Source: Sulfuricella sp. T08
Lineage (GTDB): Bacteria; Pseudomonadota; Gammaproteobacteria; Burkholderiales; Sulfuricellaceae
NCBI RefSeq assembly: GCF_000971475.1
Contig: NZ_DF967553.1
Coordinates: forward strand, 15,819-63,472
Direction of reading: 5' to 3'
Length of the DNA: 47,654 nucleotides
Part shown: positions 32,154 through 41,845 of the stretch, one piece after another
Layout: each line of letters begins with the position of its first letter
Position numbering within the stretch: the first letter of the stretch is position 1
The notes under the pieces: model-generated
Database searches by the model: none
The model's input: the letters and a program-made list of their open reading frames with translations, nothing else
What the model was told of the DNA's origin: nothing
Made by a program: the position numbers and the translations under genes

Positions 32154-33353
32154 CTAGCCTCGCACCGGCCTGACTGTGCTTGCCACGAGCTTGGCTCGAG
32201 CACGCGCCTCATCCACGTCCTTGCCGTTGGCGAGCCCCACGCCCATGCGGCGTCGAGTAAAGCTTTCCGGCTTGCCGAACAGACGCAGGTCGCTCTGCGG
32301 CACGACCAAGGCTTCCGCCACGCCTTCAAAGGCAATGCCGGTCGCCTCCATGCCCCCATAGATCACTGCACTGGCACCAGGCGCCCGCAGGCATGTGTCC
32401 ACCGGAAGACCGAGGATGGCACGGGCATGAAGATCAAATTCACTCTGGACCTGGCTGCACATGGTCACCATGCCGGTATCGTGCGGTCGCGGGCTGACTT
32501 CTGAAAACCACACCTGATCGCCCTTGACGAACAATTCCACGCCGAAAATGCCGCGGCCTCCCAGATTATCCGTCACCGCCCTGGCGATTTCACGCGAACG
32601 GGACAGGGCCACGTCGTTCATAGTCTGCGGCTGCCAGCTTTCGACGTAATCGCCCTTGACCTGGACGTGGCCGATCGGCTCGCAGAAAAAGGTTTCCACC
32701 TGGCCCGAAGCGCCCACCGCACGCACGGTGAGCAGCGTGATTTCGTACTCGAAGGCGATGAAACCCTCGACGATTACCCGCCCCTGGTTCACCCGGCTGC
32801 CGCTGGCGGCATAATCCCATGCCGTTTTGACATTGGCAGGGCCATCCAGCCGGGATTGGCCCTTGCCGGAGGAGGACATCACCGGCTTGACGATACAGGG
32901 ATAGCCGATGCCGCCATCGATCGCCGCCTGAAGTTCCTCCAGGCTGTCGGCGAAGGCATAGGGCGAAACAGGCAGTTGCAGCGTTTCTGCCGCCAGTCGG
33001 CGTATGCCTTCGCGATTCATGGTCAACTGCGCGGCGCGCGCCGTGGGTATCACCTCGGCCAGTCCATCACGTTCGATTTCGACCAGCATGTCGGTGGCGA
33101 TGGCTTCGATCTCTGGCACGATCAGGTGCGGCTTTTCCTGCTCGACCAGGGCGCGCAGCGCGGCGCCATCGGCCATATTGATGACGTGCGCGCGATGCGC
33201 CACCTGATGGCCGGGCGCATTCGCATAACGGTCCACCGCAATCACTTCCACGCCAAGGCGCTGCAAGGCGATGATCACTTCCTTGCCGAGTTCGCCGCTG
33301 CCGAGCAGCATGACGCGGGTTGCGCTAGGGCTTAACGGGGTGCCGAATTTCAT
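32154..33353 (-). CDS. purT: Formate-dependent phosphoribosylglycinamide formyltransferase
   Basis: This 399-residue ATP-grasp enzyme makes formyl-GAR from GAR, formate and ATP in purine synthesis, bypassing PurN. It opens [20 protein letters not shown], close to E. coli Pur[14 protein letters not shown] is the ATP-grasp nucleotide loop, and [19 protein letters not shown] holds the metal ligands. I chose the ATG at 33353 rather than six codons earlier from family length. A fragment matching the end of ybbP lies about 35 bp upstream, so its promoter region was rearranged. Confidence 0.93.
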
Positions 33354-33371
33354 GGGGTTTCCTACAGACAA

Positions 33372-33416
33372 AGTAAAAAACGAATTCTAGCCGCTATCCC
33401 TGATCATCTGCAAAGG
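33372..33416. repeat. Left copy of the direct repeat flanking the CoA-ester islet (ybbP 3'-end duplicate)
   Basis: The core 33387-33416 matches 39353-39382 at 27 of 30 positions in the same orientation. The outer part (AGTAAA...AATT) extends the match with small gaps. On the minus strand it reads PLQMIRDSG-stop, against PLQTIRDNS-stop at the true end of ybbP. It is noncoding here, just upstream of purT. Confidence 0.82.
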
Positions 33417-33466
33417 ATGACCCATAGGGGGACTGACCCGATATGGCGATCAACGCCTTACGGCCC

Positions 33467-34459
33467 CTACCCGAAAAACGCCTGTTCCGCGTCCTCAGGC
33501 AGCTTGATGCCGGTGACCTTGGCTTTTTGCAGCACTTCCCAGTAATAGCGGTAGGTGGCGCGGTCGTGCAGCTCGCCGGCGTGCTGGATCGGTCCCCAGT
33601 CGGCTTTTTGTGCGGAGAGCAGGATGGCCGCGCCGGCTGACACTTCGGAATGGTCAGGCTTCATGGCATCGACGATGGGCTGGATTTGCGTGGGGTAAAT
33701 GCTCCACTGCCGCAGGAAGCCGAATTCGGTACGCGCCCGACGGGCATCCTGGTAGGCAGCGTAGGGGTTTTTCAGATCGAGGGTGACGTTGTGCGCCGGA
33801 ACGATTCCATTTCCCAGTGCTGCCGCGACCACTTCACCCTTGGCGCGAGCAATCAGGCGATGCTCGAACTGGCCGGGGCTGCGCATGCAACTGGCGGAAA
33901 TGGCGCCGTGGTGGCCGGAGACGAAATCCATCAGGCCGAAGTCAAGCACCTGCAGCCACGGCAGGGCGGCGATCTCATGGACATCGCGCAGCGCGCCGTG
34001 GGTTTCAATCAGTGCGTGGATTGGGATGTCGCGTTTCACGCCACTCTTTGCCGCTCGTTTCTGGATGTATTCGATCATGTCGGCGATCTGCCTGGTTTTG
34101 GTCGCCTTCGGGATGGTGATGTAGGCGGTAGTCTCGCCGACTCCCTCCACCAGAATATCCACGTCTTTTTTCCAGTGGCCGTGGCTCGGGTCGTGGATGC
34201 GCACGCCGGCCATCTTGTGCCGGTTGGCTGCCGAATTCTGTACCCGCACGATCATTTCGGCGTGCTCCTGCTCGCGGCCCGCCGGTGCACCATCCTCGCA
34301 GTCGCAGGTAATGTCGAAGATCGGGCCGAGCTTGTCCTGCAATTCCAGCGCCTTGAGGATCAATTTTTCGCTGCCGGCAAAATGTTCGCAGGCGGGGATC
34401 GCCGGGAAGGGTCGCTCACCCTTGAACAGGGCGTCGCTGGGGTGAACTGAATGGCTCAT
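33467..34459 (-). CDS. HpcH/HpaI aldolase, malyl-CoA/methylmalyl-CoA lyase-like (lyase 1)
   Basis: This 330-residue TIM-barrel protein belongs to the citrate lyase beta/HpcH family. The metal-site residues are CDCEDGAP (Asp/Glu) and ALIETHG (Glu), VRIHDPSHG holds a conserved Arg, and LDFGLMDFVSGHHGA follows. The long N-terminus and the VRIHDPSHG motif differ from Rhodobacter Mcl1, so the subfamily is distinct. Such enzymes cleave or form 3-hydroxyacyl-CoAs such as malyl-CoA, methylmalyl-CoA or citramalyl-CoA. It is the last gene of the five-gene islet. Pairing with the mesaconyl-CoA hydratase-like gene 13 bp upstream suggests methylmalyl-CoA, but this is an inference. Confidence 0.72.
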   Translation of the reverse strand: MSHSVHPSDALFKGERPFPAIPACEHFAGSEKLILKALELQDKLGPIFDITCDCEDGAPAGREQEHAEMIVRVQNSAANRHKMAGVRIHDPSHGHWKKDVDILVEGVGETTAYITIPKATKTRQIADMIEYIQKRAAKSGVKRDIPIHALIETHGALRDVHEIAALPWLQVLDFGLMDFVSGHHGAISASCMRSPGQFEHRLIARAKGEVVAAALGNGIVPAHNVTLDLKNPYAAYQDARRARTEFGFLRQWSIYPTQIQPIVDAMKPDHSEVSAGAAILLSAQKADWGPIQHAGELHDRATYRYYWEVLQKAKVTGIKLPEDAEQAFFG

Positions 34460-34472
34460 GGGGTCTCCTTGG

Positions 34473-35537
34473 TTAGCGGCGCGGAATCAGTACCGTATAG
34501 TCCAGATCCAGCACCACGCTGGGGTGATAGCGTTGCATGCCACCCTCCTCGACTTGCGGCGCGACCAGTTCGGCTGGGGGGAGATTCTTCACGCCCACCA
34601 TGCGCAGCCTTAAGGCTCCAAGATCGCTACGGCCCGGCAGTTCCCACTTGTCCAGCACTTCGGAATAAGCATACAGGGTGTCGCCGCCGAAAGTCGGGTT
34701 GCAGTGGCTGCCTCCGTTTATGGCAGCGATGGTCAGGGCGTTCTCCAGGCCGTCGTAGGCCAGTGCCCGGCACACCGAGATGACATGGCCGCCGTACACC
34801 AGCCGCCGCCCAAACTGGGTATCCTTCATGGCATGGGCGTCGAAATGCACCCGTGCATTGTTCTGATAGAGCTTGGTGGCGAGGGTGTGGTCGGATTCAT
34901 CCACCGTCATGCCGGCAAGGTGGTCGATGCGCTCGAGCGGCGCGTAATCGTCCCATAGCCAGGGGCCGCCGGTGACCTCGGTCTCGAAGCCTTGGGCGTC
35001 GAGGGCTGCGGGCACCATCAGCCGGTCCGGAGCGACGAACGCCGGCGCTTCGGGGACGACGGGAGTCGGTGCGGGGCTGTCCGGGCTTTTCTTGTGCACC
35101 ATCACCCAGCGCACCCAGGAGAGTATTTCCTCGCCGTTCTGGTTGAGTGCGGTAGAGCGCACCCAAACGATGCCACTCTTGCGGTTGGCATTTTCCCTGA
35201 GGCCGACCACCGTGGACTCCGCCGAGATGGTGTCGCCGGCATGGACGGGCCTGAGGAAGCGCACATCGGCGTAGCCCAGGTTGGCCACGGCATTGAGGGA
35301 AATGTCCGGTACGGTTTTGCCGAAGGCGATATTGAATACCAGCAGATCGTCCAGCGGGCGATCCTTGTAACCCAAAGCATGGGCGACGGTCTTCGCGCTA
35401 TGCAGTACTTGGCGCGCGCCGGTAAGAGCGATATAGAGAGAGGCCTCTCCCTCGCCGACGGTGCGCGGCGTGCCGTGAACCAGAGTCTGCCCGAGACTGA
35501 AATCTTCGAAATAATTGCCGGTGCTGGCCTTGTTCAT
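34473..35537 (-). CDS. Double-hotdog MaoC dehydratase, mesaconyl-CoA hydratase-like
   Basis: This 354-residue protein has two hotdog domains (about 10-150 and 190-345) joined by a Pro/Ala-rich linker. The second half carries the MaoC/R-hydratase motif VHFDAHAMKDTQFGRRLVYG, with catalytic Asp and His-type residues (about 230-251). The length and two-domain form match mesaconyl-C1-CoA hydratase (Mch; methylmalyl-CoA dehydratase) of the ethylmalonyl-CoA and 3-hydroxypropionate pathways. The C-terminus ends DLDYTVLIPRR. Its stop lies 13 bp before the lyase 1 start, and its own start is 2 bp after the lyase 2 stop, so translation is probably coupled. The substrate is not proved. Confidence 0.75.
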   Translation of the reverse strand: MNKASTGNYFEDFSLGQTLVHGTPRTVGEGEASLYIALTGARQVLHSAKTVAHALGYKDRPLDDLLVFNIAFGKTVPDISLNAVANLGYADVRFLRPVHAGDTISAESTVVGLRENANRKSGIVWVRSTALNQNGEEILSWVRWVMVHKKSPDSPAPTPVVPEAPAFVAPDRLMVPAALDAQGFETEVTGGPWLWDDYAPLERIDHLAGMTVDESDHTLATKLYQNNARVHFDAHAMKDTQFGRRLVYGGHVISVCRALAYDGLENALTIAAINGGSHCNPTFGGDTLYAYSEVLDKWELPGRSDLGALRLRMVGVKNLPPAELVAPQVEEGGMQRYHPSVVLDLDYTVLIPRR

Positions 35538-35539
35538 GG

Positions 35540-36418
35540 TTATTCCTCCGCCTGCATTTTTTCAATCATCTCATGAATCATCAGGGTGTGCTTGGCCGCC
35601 TCCACATGCAGGTTCTCCACCAGACGCCCATCCACCACTGCCACGCCCATTCCCGCCGCATTGGCCTCGGTGAGAGCGGCGATGATGCGTTTTGCCGACT
35701 CCAGGCTAGCTGGACGGGGGGCGAACGCATCGTTGGCGTAGGGGATCTGGAACGGGTGGATCAGACTCTTGCCGTCGAAGCCCAGGTCGCGCGCCAGGCG
35801 ACAAGCATACTCGAAGGAATGCATATCGTTCAGGTCGAGGTGGACTCCATCAACGATGGAAACCCCATAGGCGCGGGCCGCCAGCAGGCAGTGGGAAAGG
35901 CTGTGGAGCATGGGTAGCCGGTCCTGAGTGATGCGGGCGCGGAGTTCATTGGTGAGATCGGAAGTGCCCATCACCATACACACGATGCGATCCGAGGCGC
36001 CGGCTATTTCCTCGGCGCGAAGCACCCCGAAAGGGGTTTCGATCAGCACCATGATCGGCAATTCCGGCGCACCGACCGCATCCAGGGCGGATAGCGCGGC
36101 GAGCACGTCCTGCCGGCTCTCGATCTTGGGAAACAGGATGGCGTCGGCGCCGATCCCAGCCACCGCGGCAAGATCGTCCTTGCCCCAAGGCGTGGCGAGG
36201 GCATTGACCCGCACCACGATCTCCCGGTAACCGAAGCCGCCCTGGCGGATTGCCTCGACCACGTTCTTGCGCGCCTCGGTCTTGTGTTCTGGAAGCACCG
36301 GGTCTTCCAGGTCGAGGATCAGCGAGTCCACCTGCAAGGTGCGCGCCTTCTCCAAGAAGCGCGGCACCGAGCCGGGCACATAAAGCATGGAACGGCGCGG
36401 GCGGTAAGGATTGCGCAT
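35540..36418 (-). CDS. CitE-like CoA-ester lyase (lyase 2)
   Basis: This 292-residue member is the most classical of the three HpcH/HpaI proteins. Its motifs are SMLYVPGSVPRF, LILDLEDPV (metal Asp/Glu), VVRVNAL (Arg), LFPKIES, VLIETPFGV (metal Glu), MGTSDLTN and GFDGKSLIHP. This fits stand-alone CitE, citramalyl-CoA lyase or malyl-CoA thioesterase (Mcl2). No citC, citD, citF or citX is near, so it is not part of citrate lyase. It is tightly packed between the CoA ligase (18 bp) and the MaoC gene. Confidence 0.8.
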   Translation of the reverse strand: MRNPYRPRRSMLYVPGSVPRFLEKARTLQVDSLILDLEDPVLPEHKTEARKNVVEAIRQGGFGYREIVVRVNALATPWGKDDLAAVAGIGADAILFPKIESRQDVLAALSALDAVGAPELPIMVLIETPFGVLRAEEIAGASDRIVCMVMGTSDLTNELRARITQDRLPMLHSLSHCLLAARAYGVSIVDGVHLDLNDMHSFEYACRLARDLGFDGKSLIHPFQIPYANDAFAPRPASLESAKRIIAALTEANAAGMGVAVVDGRLVENLHVEAAKHTLMIHEMIEKMQAEE

Positions 36419-36436
36419 GATAGCTACTCCCTTCGG

Positions 36437-38062
36437 TCAGAGGGTGGAGCGCGCCACGGCCAGGGACGGGACGAGATGCTGGCGCATCACCTTGCCGTTC
36501 TTGGTGCGTGGAAGGTCGCTCACGAGATAGACGATCTTCGGCGCTTTGTAGGCGGCAAGATGCTCCCGGGCATACACGACAAGGTCATCTGCGGTCGCGA
36601 CGCTGCCGGGATGCAGGATGGTATAGGCCGCCACCAGCACCTTGTCTTTGGATATCTCCTCACCGGTGGCGGCGCAATCTGCCACCTGGGGATGGTTTTT
36701 CATCACCCGTTCGATTTCGTGGGGCGAAACCCGGTAACCGAAAGTGTTGATGATGTCGTCCTTACGCCCCAGGAACCAGATGTAGCCGTCCTCGTCGAAC
36801 CTGGCATAATCGCCGGTGAGGAACCAGCGCCCCTTGAACGCCTTGGCGGTTTCCTCGGGCAGGTTCCAGTAGCGCATGAACAGGCCCGGATCGTCGTCCG
36901 GGATGCAGATCATGCCTTCCTCACCCTGTGCTACTTCCTCGAGGGTCTCGGGATCGAGCAGCCTCACCTCGTGGCCGGGCTGCGGAAAGCCCGCCGAACC
37001 AGGGCGAATGGGGCGGAACTTGTTCTCGGAAAGATAGTAGGAACACTCCGACATCCCCACCGCCTCGTAGATATCCATGCCGAAGCGTTCCCGCCACTGG
37101 GCAAGCACTTCGTCGGAGAGGTGCTCGCCGGCGCTCATGCAATGGCGCAGGGTAGGCACGTCGTCACGGCCGGAAGCGGTTTTTTGCAGGATCTGCCGGT
37201 AGATGGTGGGGACGCCGATGAAAATGGTGGCGCTATGCTTGGCGATCAGTCTCAACCAGCCGGAGGCATCATTCCTGCCCTCGTGGACGATCACGGTCTT
37301 GCCCCGATACAGGGGGTCCATCAGGGCAGATCCCAGGACATAGGTCCAGTTGAACTTGCCGGAATGCACGATGCGGTCGCCTTCCACAGCGAAATCGAAC
37401 CAGTGCCTGGCCGCCGGCTCGCGGCCGATCATGGCCCGATGGGCGTGGAGCACTCCCTTGGGGTAACCGGTGGTGCCGGAGGTGTAAACCAGGTACGCCG
37501 GGTCGTCGGAGCGGGTTTCCCGCGAGGGCGGGCACTGGCCGATTTTCGCCAGTTCCGTTTCCAGGTCGAGGACATTTAGCCCCGCCGCGGAAATGACTGC
37601 GCCTGTTCCGGCGAGCAGCACGTGGCGCAGGCTGTCGAGGCCGGTCAGCTTGTCCTTCAGGCCGTCCCACATGGCCTTGTCGGTGACCAGCAGCATCGCC
37701 CCCGAATCTTTGGCGAGATATAGCACCTCCTCGGCGGTGAGCAGGGTCGAAGTGGGTACGGCGATCGCCCCCTGTTTCATGGCGCCGAAGAAAGCGGTGG
37801 GAAAAGCAAGGCTGTTGGGCAGGCGGATCAGCACCCGATCCCCCTTTTCCACCCCCAGGTTGCGCAGCAACTGGGCGAAACGGCTGGTGCTCGCGGCGAG
37901 TTCGCCGTAAGTGGCCTGGCTGGTACCGAGGGCGTCGTCCTCCACGATCATGGCCACCCGGTTTTCCGTGAGCGTGCCGAGGTGGGCATCGGTGCAGGCA
38001 ACGGCGATGTTGAAGTATTCCGGGAGGTTCCAGGCATGGTTCTCGAAATGCGTAAAGGGCAT
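36437..38062 (-). CDS. AMP-forming acyl-CoA ligase (benzoate-CoA-ligase-like class)
   Basis: This 541-residue class I adenylate-forming enzyme makes an acyl-CoA from an acid, ATP and CoA. Visible motifs are YLVYTSGTTGYPKGVLHAH (P-loop-like A3), VGMSECSYYL (A5), FLTGDYARFDEDGY (A7), GRKDDIINTFGYRVSP (hinge, A8) and RTKNGKVMRQ with the catalytic C-terminal Lys. The overall wording is nearer benzoate/aryl- and medium-chain acyl-CoA synthetases than acetyl-CoA synthetase. In context the acid could be a C4-C5 acid such as mesaconate or itaconate, or an aromatic or fatty acid; the sequence does not decide. Confidence 0.85.
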   Translation of the reverse strand: MPFTHFENHAWNLPEYFNIAVACTDAHLGTLTENRVAMIVEDDALGTSQATYGELAASTSRFAQLLRNLGVEKGDRVLIRLPNSLAFPTAFFGAMKQGAIAVPTSTLLTAEEVLYLAKDSGAMLLVTDKAMWDGLKDKLTGLDSLRHVLLAGTGAVISAAGLNVLDLETELAKIGQCPPSRETRSDDPAYLVYTSGTTGYPKGVLHAHRAMIGREPAARHWFDFAVEGDRIVHSGKFNWTYVLGSALMDPLYRGKTVIVHEGRNDASGWLRLIAKHSATIFIGVPTIYRQILQKTASGRDDVPTLRHCMSAGEHLSDEVLAQWRERFGMDIYEAVGMSECSYYLSENKFRPIRPGSAGFPQPGHEVRLLDPETLEEVAQGEEGMICIPDDDPGLFMRYWNLPEETAKAFKGRWFLTGDYARFDEDGYIWFLGRKDDIINTFGYRVSPHEIERVMKNHPQVADCAATGEEISKDKVLVAAYTILHPGSVATADDLVVYAREHLAAYKAPKIVYLVSDLPRTKNGKVMRQHLVPSLAVARSTL

Positions 38063-38169
38063 GGGTTCTTACTCCTGATTTGTTGACCGACAGAACGGTT
38101 AATCCGGCTTCTATCTGTTACGGCTAACTCTTTTTATGAGCAAGCTTTTCCAGCTTATCCGGCCTGGGG

Positions 38170-39267
38170 TTACAAAATCACCCCGTACGGCCAGTTTTCC
38201 CGGATTACCTGGGCCGGCAGCATTCCCAGCACGGTCAGGGCGAAACGCGTATCCTCCTCGGACAATGCGCGCAGGGCATGGGCTCGCAGCAGCACTTGCA
38301 GCGCCTTGCCGAACATCGGCGGGTCAAGCATTTCACCCTCGAACTTGATTGCCCCACCCAGCAGCGCATCTGCCTCCACCGCTGCCTTGAGGATGCGGAT
38401 GTTGCGGAGGATCTCGGTGGGCGATGGGGTGTAAGCCACCTTGCACAGGTGGATATGGCTGGGGTGGATCGCCTGCTTTCCGGTGAGTCCCAGCGCCGCT
38501 TCCTCGCAGGCATGACGGAACACCACGCGCGATTCGTGATCGCCGTGCAAGTCCAGCCAGCGCCGGATATCGTGGGGCTCGACGAAGTTGTCCGGCATGG
38601 TGGAGTCGCCGATCAGCACTTCCACCCCCCCGATCACCCCCTTGCCGGCGATGCGCGCCTCGAACAGGATCTGATTGAGGAAGAACTTGAGTTCCTCGGT
38701 CCAGTGCTCGGGGGTGATATGGATGCCCATCGCCTTGGAGAAATCGTGGATGCCGAACACCACGTGCCGCACCGTGGGATAGGCCATGATCTCGGGAGCG
38801 ATCTTCAACGACTTGGGATGCTCGATGATGGGCTGGATGGTGATACGCCCGTTCACCCCGGCCAGCCATGCCGAGAGATCGCGGATTTCGGCGGCGCCGT
38901 AGGCTTCTCCGGCTTTCGCCAGCATCACCACGTCGATGTGGTCGGCGAGGTCGCGCACCATCTGAATATCCTTGTCGTATTCTTCGGTACGGAAGGGATT
39001 GATGCGAACCGCCACGGTGACGTCATCGCGTTCGAGGTCCGGCAGCTCCTGGCGCAGCAGGTCGCGGCTCAAGGCTTTCTGGCGGCAGCCGTCTTCCAGA
39101 TCGAACAGCAAAGTGTGGGCGTTGGTGTTGCGGGCGTGCTTCTTGAAGCGCAGCGCTGCCGCCTCCAGGTCTTCGTAAATGCCAAGGGACGGCGCATACT
39201 TCACCGGCGGGTAATAAAGCTGTATGCCAGGCCAAAAATCCCCGAGCACCGAGGTGGATATCGTCAT
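38170..39267 (-). CDS. Divergent HpcH/HpaI aldolase/citrate-lyase-family protein (lyase 3)
   Basis: This 365-residue protein is the first gene of the islet transcript. Family residues remain: TLLFDLEDGCR, VAVRINPFR, MLAKAGE (in place of PKIE), IQPIIEHPKSL and FGIHDFSKAMG; GLTGKQAIHPSHI is also present. It carries a longer N-terminus (LYYPPVKYAPS) and an inserted segment around GGVEVLIGDSTMPDNFVEPH. It is clearly a separate subfamily from lyases 1 and 2. The start at ATG 39265-39267 is chosen over a TTG seven codons upstream because AAGG and GCAGG lie just before it. Function is unknown beyond the fold. Confidence 0.72.
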   Translation of the reverse strand: MTISTSVLGDFWPGIQLYYPPVKYAPSLGIYEDLEAAALRFKKHARNTNAHTLLFDLEDGCRQKALSRDLLRQELPDLERDDVTVAVRINPFRTEEYDKDIQMVRDLADHIDVVMLAKAGEAYGAAEIRDLSAWLAGVNGRITIQPIIEHPKSLKIAPEIMAYPTVRHVVFGIHDFSKAMGIHITPEHWTEELKFFLNQILFEARIAGKGVIGGVEVLIGDSTMPDNFVEPHDIRRWLDLHGDHESRVVFRHACEEAALGLTGKQAIHPSHIHLCKVAYTPSPTEILRNIRILKAAVEADALLGGAIKFEGEMLDPPMFGKALQVLLRAHALRALSEEDTRFALTVLGMLPAQVIRENWPYGVIL

Positions 39268-39317
39268 GCCTGCCTTCCCCTTGATCAAACTTTGCGGATG
39301 AGAGCTAACTTAAACCG

Positions 39318-39346
39318 ATAATAGAATTTCCGACGAAAATAGTAAA
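39318..39346 (-). promoter_or_regulatory. Candidate promoter of the CoA-ester islet
   Basis: On the minus strand, TTTACT (39341-39346) and TATTAT (39318-39323) are separated by 17 bases, about 50 bp before the lyase 3 start. The -35 box lies inside the flanking direct repeat, between that gene and the ybbP stop. Confidence 0.5.
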
Positions 39347-39382
39347 GAATTGCTAGCTGTTATCCCTGATCGTCTGCAAAGG
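39341..39382. repeat. Right copy of the islet-flanking direct repeat (3' end of ybbP)
   Basis: The core 39353-39382 is the last coding part of ybbP (PLQTIRDNS and stop). It is repeated with 3 mismatches at 33387-33416. The two copies lie about 6.0 kb apart and enclose exactly the five CoA-ester genes. Confidence 0.82.
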
Positions 39383-41841
39383 GGGCTGATTCAGCACGCT
39401 GTAACAACCGGCGACGCCGGCAACGCCGATAGCGGCGGCTCCGGCCAGCATCCCCACCGGCAGCAGCCAGAAATTGAACACATAGGGCAACGCCAGGATT
39501 CGGGTGCTCAGGAAGTAGCTCGTTCCGCTCGCGCCGAGCGCGGCGACCAGCCCAGCCAGCATGCCGATCCCGGCAAACTCGGCAAACAGGCCAGCCAGCA
39601 ACTGCCGCCTGCTCGCTCCCAGAGTGCGCAATATCGCGGTTTCGTATACCCGCTCGTCACGGGTAGCGGCAATCGCGGCATACAGTACCGTGAAGCCCAT
39701 CAGCCAGGTAAACAGGAAAACGAACTCGACCGCGCCGGCGACCCGATCCATGATGGTGCGCACTTCGTTCATTACGGCGGCCACGTCGATCACCGTAAGA
39801 TTCGGAAACGCCTTGACCATTTCGTCGAGCAGGCTACCCTGCGCATCAGGCAAATGAAGGCTGGTGATATAGCTGGCGGGAAATTTTTCCAGTACACCGG
39901 GTGAGGCGACCACGAAGAAATTGACGCGAAACGAATCCCAGTTGACCTTACGCAGACTCGCCACCCGTGCGCTGAAAGTCGCGCCACCGACACCGTAGGT
40001 CAGTTGATCGCCCAGCTTGATGCCGAGCGTACTGGCTATCCCCTCTTCGACTGACAGTTGAGCCGCGCCATGATCTTCCCTGGCCCACCATTTCCCGGCG
40101 ACAAGCTGATTGTCATCAGGCAGGCGATCCGACCAGGAAAGGTTGAATTCCCGCTCAAGCAGCCGTTGCGCGCGCTGATCGGCATATTCCCCGGTGGCTA
40201 CCGGCTTGCCGTTGACAGCCAGCAACCGGCCACGCACCATAGGGTAAAGCGCCGGCGGAGGGATGTGGCGGCCATGGAAAAAACCTCGTAGCAACTCAAC
40301 CTGATCGGGCTGAATGTTGATAACGAAACGGTTGGGTGCCTCGGCAGGCAGTGTGGATTGCCAGCTTTGCATCAGATCGCCGCGCACTACGGTCAGCAGC
40401 AGCAACATCAGCATTCCCAGGCTGAAGGCACTCACCTGCGCCACGCTTCCACCCGCCCGCCGTGCAATGTTGGCCAGCCCATAACGCCATGAAGCGGCAG
40501 CCTGGCGACGCATCCCGGACAATGTCCTGATCAGCAACAGCGCCAGCAGTGCGGCAACCAGGATGGCTGCGCCCATGCCCGCCAGCACATAGCCGCCCAG
40601 CTTGGCATCCCCCGCCTGCCACAGCACCAGCCCGGAAATACCGGCAAGCCCGAGGGCGAAGCCGATCAAGCCGAAGCGTCCGGGAGGGCCGAGTTCGTGG
40701 CGCAACACGCGCAGGGCGGGAACATGTTTCAGCTGCTGCAGGAAAGGCAGTGAAAACCCCAACAGCGTCACCATGCCGGTCAGAACCCCTTGCACAGCGG
40801 GCAGCATTGACGGCAGAGGCAGCTCGGCAGCAACCATACTGCCCAAGCGTTGCGCCAGCACCATCTGCCCGAGATAACCGAGCAGACAGCCGATCAGGCT
40901 GGACAGTATGCCGAGCAGAAGAAACTGGATCAGGTAAAGACGGAAAATCAGCCGCTGCTGGGCACCCAGGCAGCGCATCACGGCACAGTTGTCGAGATGG
41001 CGGGCCATGAATCTGCGTGTCGCCATGACCACCGCCACCGCTGCCAGAATAATGCTGGTGAGCGCAGCCAGGCCGAGAAAACGCTCTGCCCGCGCCAGCG
41101 CAGCGCGGATTTCCGGGCGCGCGTCCGACACGCCTTCCAGACGCTCACCGCGCTTCAGCCCTGCCGTAGCCCAGGTGCGGAAAAGTTCAACCGTGCCGAC
41201 CTCTCCTGCAACCAGCAGACGATAGCTGACGCGGCTGCCTTCCTGGATCAGCCCGGTTGCCGGGATATCCTGAATATTCATCAGCAGGCGCGGCGCAATA
41301 TTAAACAGGACGCCGGCACGATCCGGCTCCTGAGTCAGGACGGCAGACATGGCCAGATGACTTGTCCCCACTTCCAGGTCTGCGCCGGGCCCCGCATCCA
41401 GCTGTTTAAACAGGCGCTCGTCCAGCCATGCCGTACCCACTTCAGGAATCTCGCTGCTGGCGCGATCCGGGGCGTAGGGCTGCTGCGTCACTCGCAGCTG
41501 CCCGCGTAGCGGATAATTGCGGCTCACCGCCTTGATTTCCGCCAGTTGGGCGCGCTCCCCATGCAGCACCATGCTGGGAAAACTCAGGGTATGAGCCGTG
41601 CGCAGACCACGCCGCAACGCCTCACGCTCAAAACCCGCATCCAGCGGATGGTCCGAGATCAGCACTAGATCTGCGCCTAACAGCATATTCGCCTGCTGCG
41701 CCAGCGCCCGTCCGACCCGGTCGGTAAAAAACCCGACCGATGTGACGCTGGCTACGGCAATCACCAGTGCAGCTGCCAGCACGCGCAGTTCCCCGGCACG
41801 CCACTCGCGGCGCAGCATACGCAGAGAGAGGGCAAAGCTGT

Positions 41842-41845
<4 letters not shown>
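39353..41845 (-). CDS. ybbP: FtsX-like ABC transporter permease (YbbP)
   Basis: This 830-residue inner-membrane protein has two FtsX/MacB-type permease modules. An N-terminal helix ([19 protein letters not shown]) and a large periplasmic region (about 50-240) are followed by three helices (about 245-375). A pair of central helices, a second periplasmic domain and a final three-helix bundle complete it. This is the YbbP architecture, linked to lipid or lipoprotein-like extrusion and paired with YbbA. Its ATG overlaps the ybbA stop by 4 bp (ATGA), so the genes are translationally coupled. The 3' end is duplicated 6 kb downstream. Confidence 0.9.

Follow-up and report, generated by a model that had tools for sequence, protein, structure and literature searches.

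The methylcitric acid cycle (MCC) genes named in the available part of one study (PMC4109929) are prpCBD, cyl1, maoC, cyl2, gntR, mdh, sdhABCD, cyl3, prpE, fum, and can, and the available part of another (PMC3728764) calls the role of this cyl/maoC/prpE cluster in Methylotenera unknown. Here, we describe an islet of approximately 5.9 kb that carries genes of this kind between ybbP and purT in Sulfuricella sp. T08 (genome G000, 3.42 Mb). The islet lies in a stretch of 47,654 nucleotides (G000:C45:15819-63472, hereafter the window), all of whose features listed below are on the minus strand (Table 1). It is a real and well-polarized insertion of a metabolic operon accompanied by duplication of its target, ordinary in kind, instructive in mechanism, and a tidy complement to a pathway.

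The islet interrupts an ancestral ybbP–purT junction

The ancestral junction between ybbP and purT has been split by an insertion. We compared the locus with 11 other genomes of the genus, in 10 of which ybbP and purT are joined on one contig; in the remaining one, G002, the 2 genes lie on separate contigs and the junction is not readable. In all 10 readable genomes ybbP directly precedes purT with a single copy of the core of the repeat described below, and these junctions contain neither the islet nor any extra sequence. G005 and G011 DNA skips the islet but aligns to the window on either side of it at 91–92%, and the 2 flanking matches overlap by 35 bases in G005/G011 coordinates. The ybbP frame is intact in G000, with a tail like those of its relatives.

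In the tree of ybbP and purT, G000 is the sister of G005 plus G011 within a ladder of islet-free lineages, on which the islet demands either 1 gain or approximately 6 losses (5 if 2 weakly placed genome pairs are sisters). Because the carrier is nested and a single change stands against 5 or 6, the simplest history is that the G000 lineage acquired the islet after its split from G005 and G011. Searches for islet genes across the genus covered the cyl1-like gene (11 genomes) and the cyl3-like gene (6 sampled genomes): the former was found in 1 of the 11, G004, at 54% identity, and for the latter the 6 genomes yielded nothing at E 1e-120. In the 11 kb examined around the G004 relative (L076, G004:C146), none of the remaining islet genes is present.

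An earlier note on this DNA, made from the sequence alone, had offered a split ancestral junction as one of 2 readings, which the islet-free relatives support; the outcomes it had named as telling against its proposal did not occur, in that relatives without the islet exist and the repeat core is not a repeat commonly found in the genome.

A duplicated ybbP 3′ end flanks the islet

The last 30 bases of ybbP (copy R) recur beyond the islet (copy L) with 27 of 30 identities, compared with 20 of 30 for the runner-up 30-mer in the window, and a repeat finder gave a longer, ungapped match of 47 nt with 79% identity (33370-33416 and 39336-39382). A degenerate 30-mer search allowing up to 3 mismatches found 2 sites in the whole genome and none in the reversed control. 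Translated in the ybbP direction, the displaced copy reads PLQMIRDSG-stop, and 5 same-strand open reading frames (ORFs) lie between the copies, with purT next. On all these points the earlier note had read the sequence correctly. At the same mismatch limit, a census of 399 sampled genomes of the order (a sample that excludes G015, introduced below, and in which members such as G008, with more than 3 mismatches, are uncounted) gave 6 positive genomes, all of this genus and all at the ybbP end; only G000 had 2 copies. Apart from the displaced copy, the core did not occur outside ybbP ends in the sampled genomes, plasmid and phage elements not having been searched. The repeat core is native ybbP sequence that has been duplicated. 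The 3 differences in 30 between the copies agree with insertion early on the terminal branch, which measures 0.042 per site.

Past the core on the ybbP side there is no similarity between the copies (extension score 0). On the other side there is a weak gapped extension of approximately 60 columns, with an anchored score of 9 that is equalled by 0.25% of 400 shuffles; unanchored, the extension on this side is equalled by 1.6% of 2000 shuffles. A longer duplication reaching into the purT leader was considered and dropped: the stretch is carried before the homologous gene by G015 (the metagenome-assembled genome of Sulfuricella sp. CROMO_A_6, JAGXQV010000190.1, of the same family) and, less closely, by G099, of another family. 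Because it is found upstream of the G015 and G099 operons, we read the weak extension as islet sequence. The one-sided matching in the earlier note is thus present, but it reflects islet promoter sequence that related operons also carry, not duplication.

The islet was compared with the homologous operon of G015. At the ybbP end, homology begins no more than 2 bases from the core (window 39351) and spans a promoter-like site; at the far end, similarity stops at the last islet stop codon. The 50-bp stretch that follows was searched for in G000 and 8 other genomes and, beyond itself, matched nothing significantly, the best remaining hit having an E of 0.27. The islet ends bear no inverted repeat pair, and no transposase is found among the 5 islet genes. 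The GC content of the islet (61.4%) exceeds that of the wider flanks (57.7–57.9%), as the earlier note had judged by eye, but this contrast vanishes against ybbP (62.1%) and purT (62.5%). The GC content at third codon positions is 0.76–0.81 in the islet, slightly above the 0.71–0.74 of ybbP and purT, and islet codon usage resembles that of the flanks.

Putative overlap of the ybbP tail with a purT promoter

Conservation at the junction suggests that the ybbP 3′ end overlaps a putative purT promoter. Such an overlap is suggested because the last codons of ybbP show excess conservation at third positions: in 8 codons of the tail the mean pairwise identity in 11 genomes is 0.877, whereas codon windows average 0.639. 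The fraction of these codon windows as conserved as the tail is 0.0048, the tail itself included, a figure that is a guide, as the repeat was already known when the tail was picked for this test. The start of the core, CCTTTGCAG, is invariant in the 11 genomes and is retained in the displaced, now noncoding copy. TTGCAG and TAGAAT or TAAAAT, 18 bases apart, stand before purT in G000 and in G005-like relatives. Copy L and the bases next to it, where no reading frame constrains the sequence, retain TTGCAG-N18-TAGAAT; at copy R, the core is followed by CAATTC and no TAGAAT is formed. Besides the choice of the tail after the fact, 2 observations weigh against the overlap: a consensus promoter scan calls no purT promoter at its thresholds in either G000 or G005, and TTGCAG fits only 3 of 6 consensus bases.

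Proposed capture of the islet

The best explanation of the whole, to which we assign a probability of roughly 0.6, is that an operon was inserted by recombinase-free capture and that the overlap between the ybbP end and the purT promoter was duplicated, sparing both neighbors. The inserted DNA would have been a self-contained transcription unit, with a promoter followed by the cyl3-like, acyl-CoA (coenzyme A) synthetase, cyl2-like, maoC-like, and cyl1-like genes. The joins would have duplicated approximately 30 bp, a segment with the final 9 ybbP codons, the stop codon, and probably some of the purT promoter, so that one copy would keep the ybbP frame, the other would keep the purT upstream region, and neither neighbor would be damaged. 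Capture may have proceeded by illegitimate or short-homology recombination, the operon having no recombinase of its own, and the insertions that survived would be those with a duplicated overlap. Since an insertion without this duplication would harm one of the neighbors, selection alone could explain the repeat.

Several points count against this explanation: (i) short homology at the promoter-side junction is weak and amounts to a hint, as 20 bases from the promoter region of the G015 operon agree with the purT leader at 16 positions in G000 and at 15 in G004, with p values from 0.003 to 0.46 depending on the pair; (ii) the islet path length is slightly shorter than the BipA path length for G015 and equal to it for G099 (values below); and (iii) a site-specific integrase would likewise leave a 30-bp direct repeat at a gene 3′ end.

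The last point raises the strongest alternative, in which an integrative element entered at the ybbP 3′ end by means of a site-specific recombinase, the attachment core restored the gene, and only the metabolic operon was later left. The position of the 30-bp direct repeats (27 of 30) at a gene 3′ end with the frame preserved fits this alternative; protein genes are known to take insertions at their 3′ ends, for example SGI1 at trmE (in the available part of PMC8409611), and 7 PF00589 matches occur elsewhere in the G000 genome. However, contig C45, which holds the window, has no PF00589 integrase match (other recombinase families were not searched genome-wide), and the shared sequence of the operon runs up to the core, leaving no remnant on the promoter side. 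Nor was the core seen as a separate site in the 399 sampled genomes or at the ends of the G015 and G099 operons, and it has little symmetry (best listed inverted match, 4 of 6 or 5 of 9). No integrase was recognized by eye among the two longest ORFs downstream of ybbP at 10 loci of 2 other genera of the family, one of which spans only 184 bp. An integrative element is therefore rather unlikely in our judgment. Of the earlier note's proposal of integration at the ybbP 3′ end, the repeat and the intact gene stand, whereas site-specific integration is unsupported, the contig being without a PF00589 match.

Source of the islet DNA

The path lengths for the islet and for BipA are 0.28 and 0.278 to G099, 0.31 and 0.354 to G015, and 0.48 and 0.455 to G304, respectively. 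The DNA identity to G015 is 76–82% in the islet, compared with 74% in BipA, 76% in the DEAD-box gene, 81% in purT, and 68% in ybbP. Transfer from a distant source was considered on 2 grounds and supported by neither: in GC content and codon usage the islet is like ybbP and purT, and the islet and BipA paths are near equal. From these comparisons, a near, unsampled donor and a relocated ancestral copy would both fit the path lengths.

The second of these sources would be an ancestral MCC-linked copy within the genome that moved to the ybbP–purT junction while the other genus members lost theirs; it concerns the source only and is compatible with recombinase-free capture. The G099 divergence that equals that of BipA, the flank-like codon usage, and the G015 arrangement, which places gntR, a malic enzyme gene, and a second citE close to the 5 genes, all agree with such a move. 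We nevertheless consider it improbable, given that (i) the cyl1-like gene is missing from 10 of the 11 other genus genomes and is only 54% alike in G004; (ii) nothing in the 6 sampled genomes matches the cyl3-like gene at E 1e-120; and (iii) the prpB–gntR gap of G000 is too short for a remnant. The second cyl2/citE-like gene of G015 (L070:16462-17316, G015:C190), beside gntR and the malic enzyme gene, is 70% identical to that of the islet.

That the islet was ancestral at this site and was lost elsewhere in the genus by recombination between the direct repeats, which would yield a scarless ybbP–purT junction and would suit the roughly organismal distances to carriers in other genera (G099: islet 0.28, BipA 0.278), is very improbable, as it takes approximately 6 precise losses (or 5) in place of 1 gain and must leave 10 islet-free junctions without extra sequence.

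Islet genes and the divided MCC gene set

The islet proteins are assigned in Table 1. The cyl1-like and cyl3-like proteins have 84–85% and 88–89% amino acid identity, respectively, to their counterparts in G015 and G099. The listed ORF of the cyl3-like gene begins 7 codons earlier than our start, with TTG at 39288; from 39267 it reads MTIST, as in G015. Of the itaconate degradation set RipABC, the RipB and RipC equivalogs missed their cut-offs (RipB, 124 vs 340 bits; best RipC, 132 vs 375 bits). The CoA-ester label given to the islet in the earlier note is right but incomplete, the genes being part of the MCC set.

Table 1. Features of the islet and its flanks, with positions in the window.
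Feature	Position	Strand	Evidence or remark
purT, formate-dependent phosphoribosylglycinamide formyltransferase	32154..33371	-	NF006766 and TIGR01142 above cut-off; native flank
Repeat copy L	33387..33416	-	Displaced ybbP 3′ end, joined to native purT leader as in relatives
50-bp stretch between last islet stop codon and copy L	33417..33466	-	No significant match (see text)
cyl1-like HpcH/HpaI lyase (“mcl”)	33467..34459	-	PF03328; nearest solved sequence 3qqw, E 3.5e-148
maoC-like hydratase (“mch”)	34473..35537	-	PF19315 mesaconyl-CoA hydratase; 8hgn beta-methylmalyl-CoA dehydratase, E 1e-112
cyl2-like CitE-type lyase	35540..36418	-	PF03328; malyl-CoA/beta-methylmalyl-CoA lyase 5ugr, E 2.7e-43
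Acyl-CoA synthetase, “prpE” position of Methylophilaceae set	36437..38062	-	PF00501 and PF13193; solved relatives are aryl-/acyl-CoA ligases
cyl3-like HpcH/HpaI lyase (“hpc2”)	38170..39267	-	PF03328; start ATG at 39267
Islet promoter-like site TTTACT-N17-TATTAT	39318..39346	-	Consensus scan 9/12; surroundings common to G015, partly G099
Repeat copy R	39353..39382	-	Final 9 codons of native ybbP plus stop codon; then CAATTC
ybbP, FtsX-like permease	39353..41845	-	NF041854, E 1.3e-155, 519.5 bits vs cut-off 999; native flank

Related loci were collected as the best 80 of 147 loci from a genome-contig search, many of them clipped by contig ends or by the stretch taken. Among these 80, the maoC and cyl1 types occur together in 75, with cyl2 in 70, with cyl3 as well in 54, and all 5 genes in 18. 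By title, they are mostly of Methylophilaceae, Methylophaga, or Gallionellaceae type, and the rest include Burkholderiales. The Methylophaga and Methylophilus loci that we read closely run on to prpB, prpC, and prpD types, and at their opposite side stand a malic enzyme and a GntR regulator; these gene names are our own reading, backed for prpB, prpC, and prpD by the G000 homologs. Outside the islet, we looked in G000 for prpB, prpC, prpD, gntR, malic enzyme, sdhA, and sdhB, all of which are clustered on contig C69, with prpB, prpC, and prpD above their NCBIfam cut-offs. A prpC of the G000 type is also present in G005 and G011 and was not found in G004, an 87%-complete genome. The islet thus adds cyl, maoC, and synthetase genes to a genome already having the core of the MCC set. 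Judging from this gene content, the islet probably contributes acyl-CoA activation, hydration, and lyase steps, which would supply the native prpBCD with propionyl-CoA, likely derived from a branched C5 acid.

The palindrome CTTATATAAG occurs in 67 of the 80 related loci and at G000:C69 (L197:8141). In the MCC loci looked at it stands beside gntR and is a candidate operator. The window contains no copy of this palindrome. We therefore dropped the idea that CTTATATAAG governs the islet, whose control may differ from that of the related loci.

Two further matches were noted. G000:C63:1906-2046 (L038), on another contig, matches the 47 C-terminal PurT residues at 64% and is perhaps a purT fragment. 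The window from approximately 47561 to 47654 matches G099 at C73, C43, and C15, and one place in G005 off synteny, and is perhaps a dispersed repeat.

Implications and comparison with known systems

In the literature matches listed, no title pointed to the islet, and ybbP or purT likewise appeared in none of one listing. The locus is a natural experiment: close relatives show it in both states, islet-bearing and islet-free, so that gain, target duplication, and later divergence of the copies can be read directly. If the overlap of the ybbP end with a purT promoter is right, a short direct repeat at a gene 3′ end need not imply an integrase. Tentatively, and with more doubt than conviction, we suggest a general route in which whole operons are captured without a recombinase at gene pairs where the coding end of one gene overlaps the promoter of the other, duplication of the overlap making the capture viable. 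If this were true, an att-like repeat could be kept by selection rather than made by an integrase, and metabolic operons would have a way into tightly packed gene pairs.

Like SGI1-type islands, the islet is flanked on both sides by a direct repeat of a gene 3′ end, with the gene intact. It differs from these islands in that (i) its genes include no recombinase or mobility gene; (ii) it is approximately 5.9 kb long; and (iii) its core is not seen as a separate attachment site.

Homologous counterparts of the islet itself are the G015 and G099 operons, which contain the same 5 genes in the same order and on the same strand, with 77–89% amino acid identity and related promoter-region sequence. 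By contrast with the islet, these operons do not lie at the ybbP–purT junction and their ends lack the 30-bp core; the intergenic gaps of the G015 operon are also wider.

The Methylophilaceae MCC set has a counterpart for each of the 5 islet genes (cyl1, maoC, cyl2, cyl3, and prpE; tblastn, 80 loci). In the Methylophilaceae-type arrangement the 5 genes would be linked to prpBCD-gntR and the CTTATATAAG site, whereas in G000 the set is divided, with the five-gene operon on C45 and prpBCD, gntR, malic enzyme, and sdhAB on C69. The islet sets the cyl/maoC/prpE part of the MCC set apart from prpBCD.

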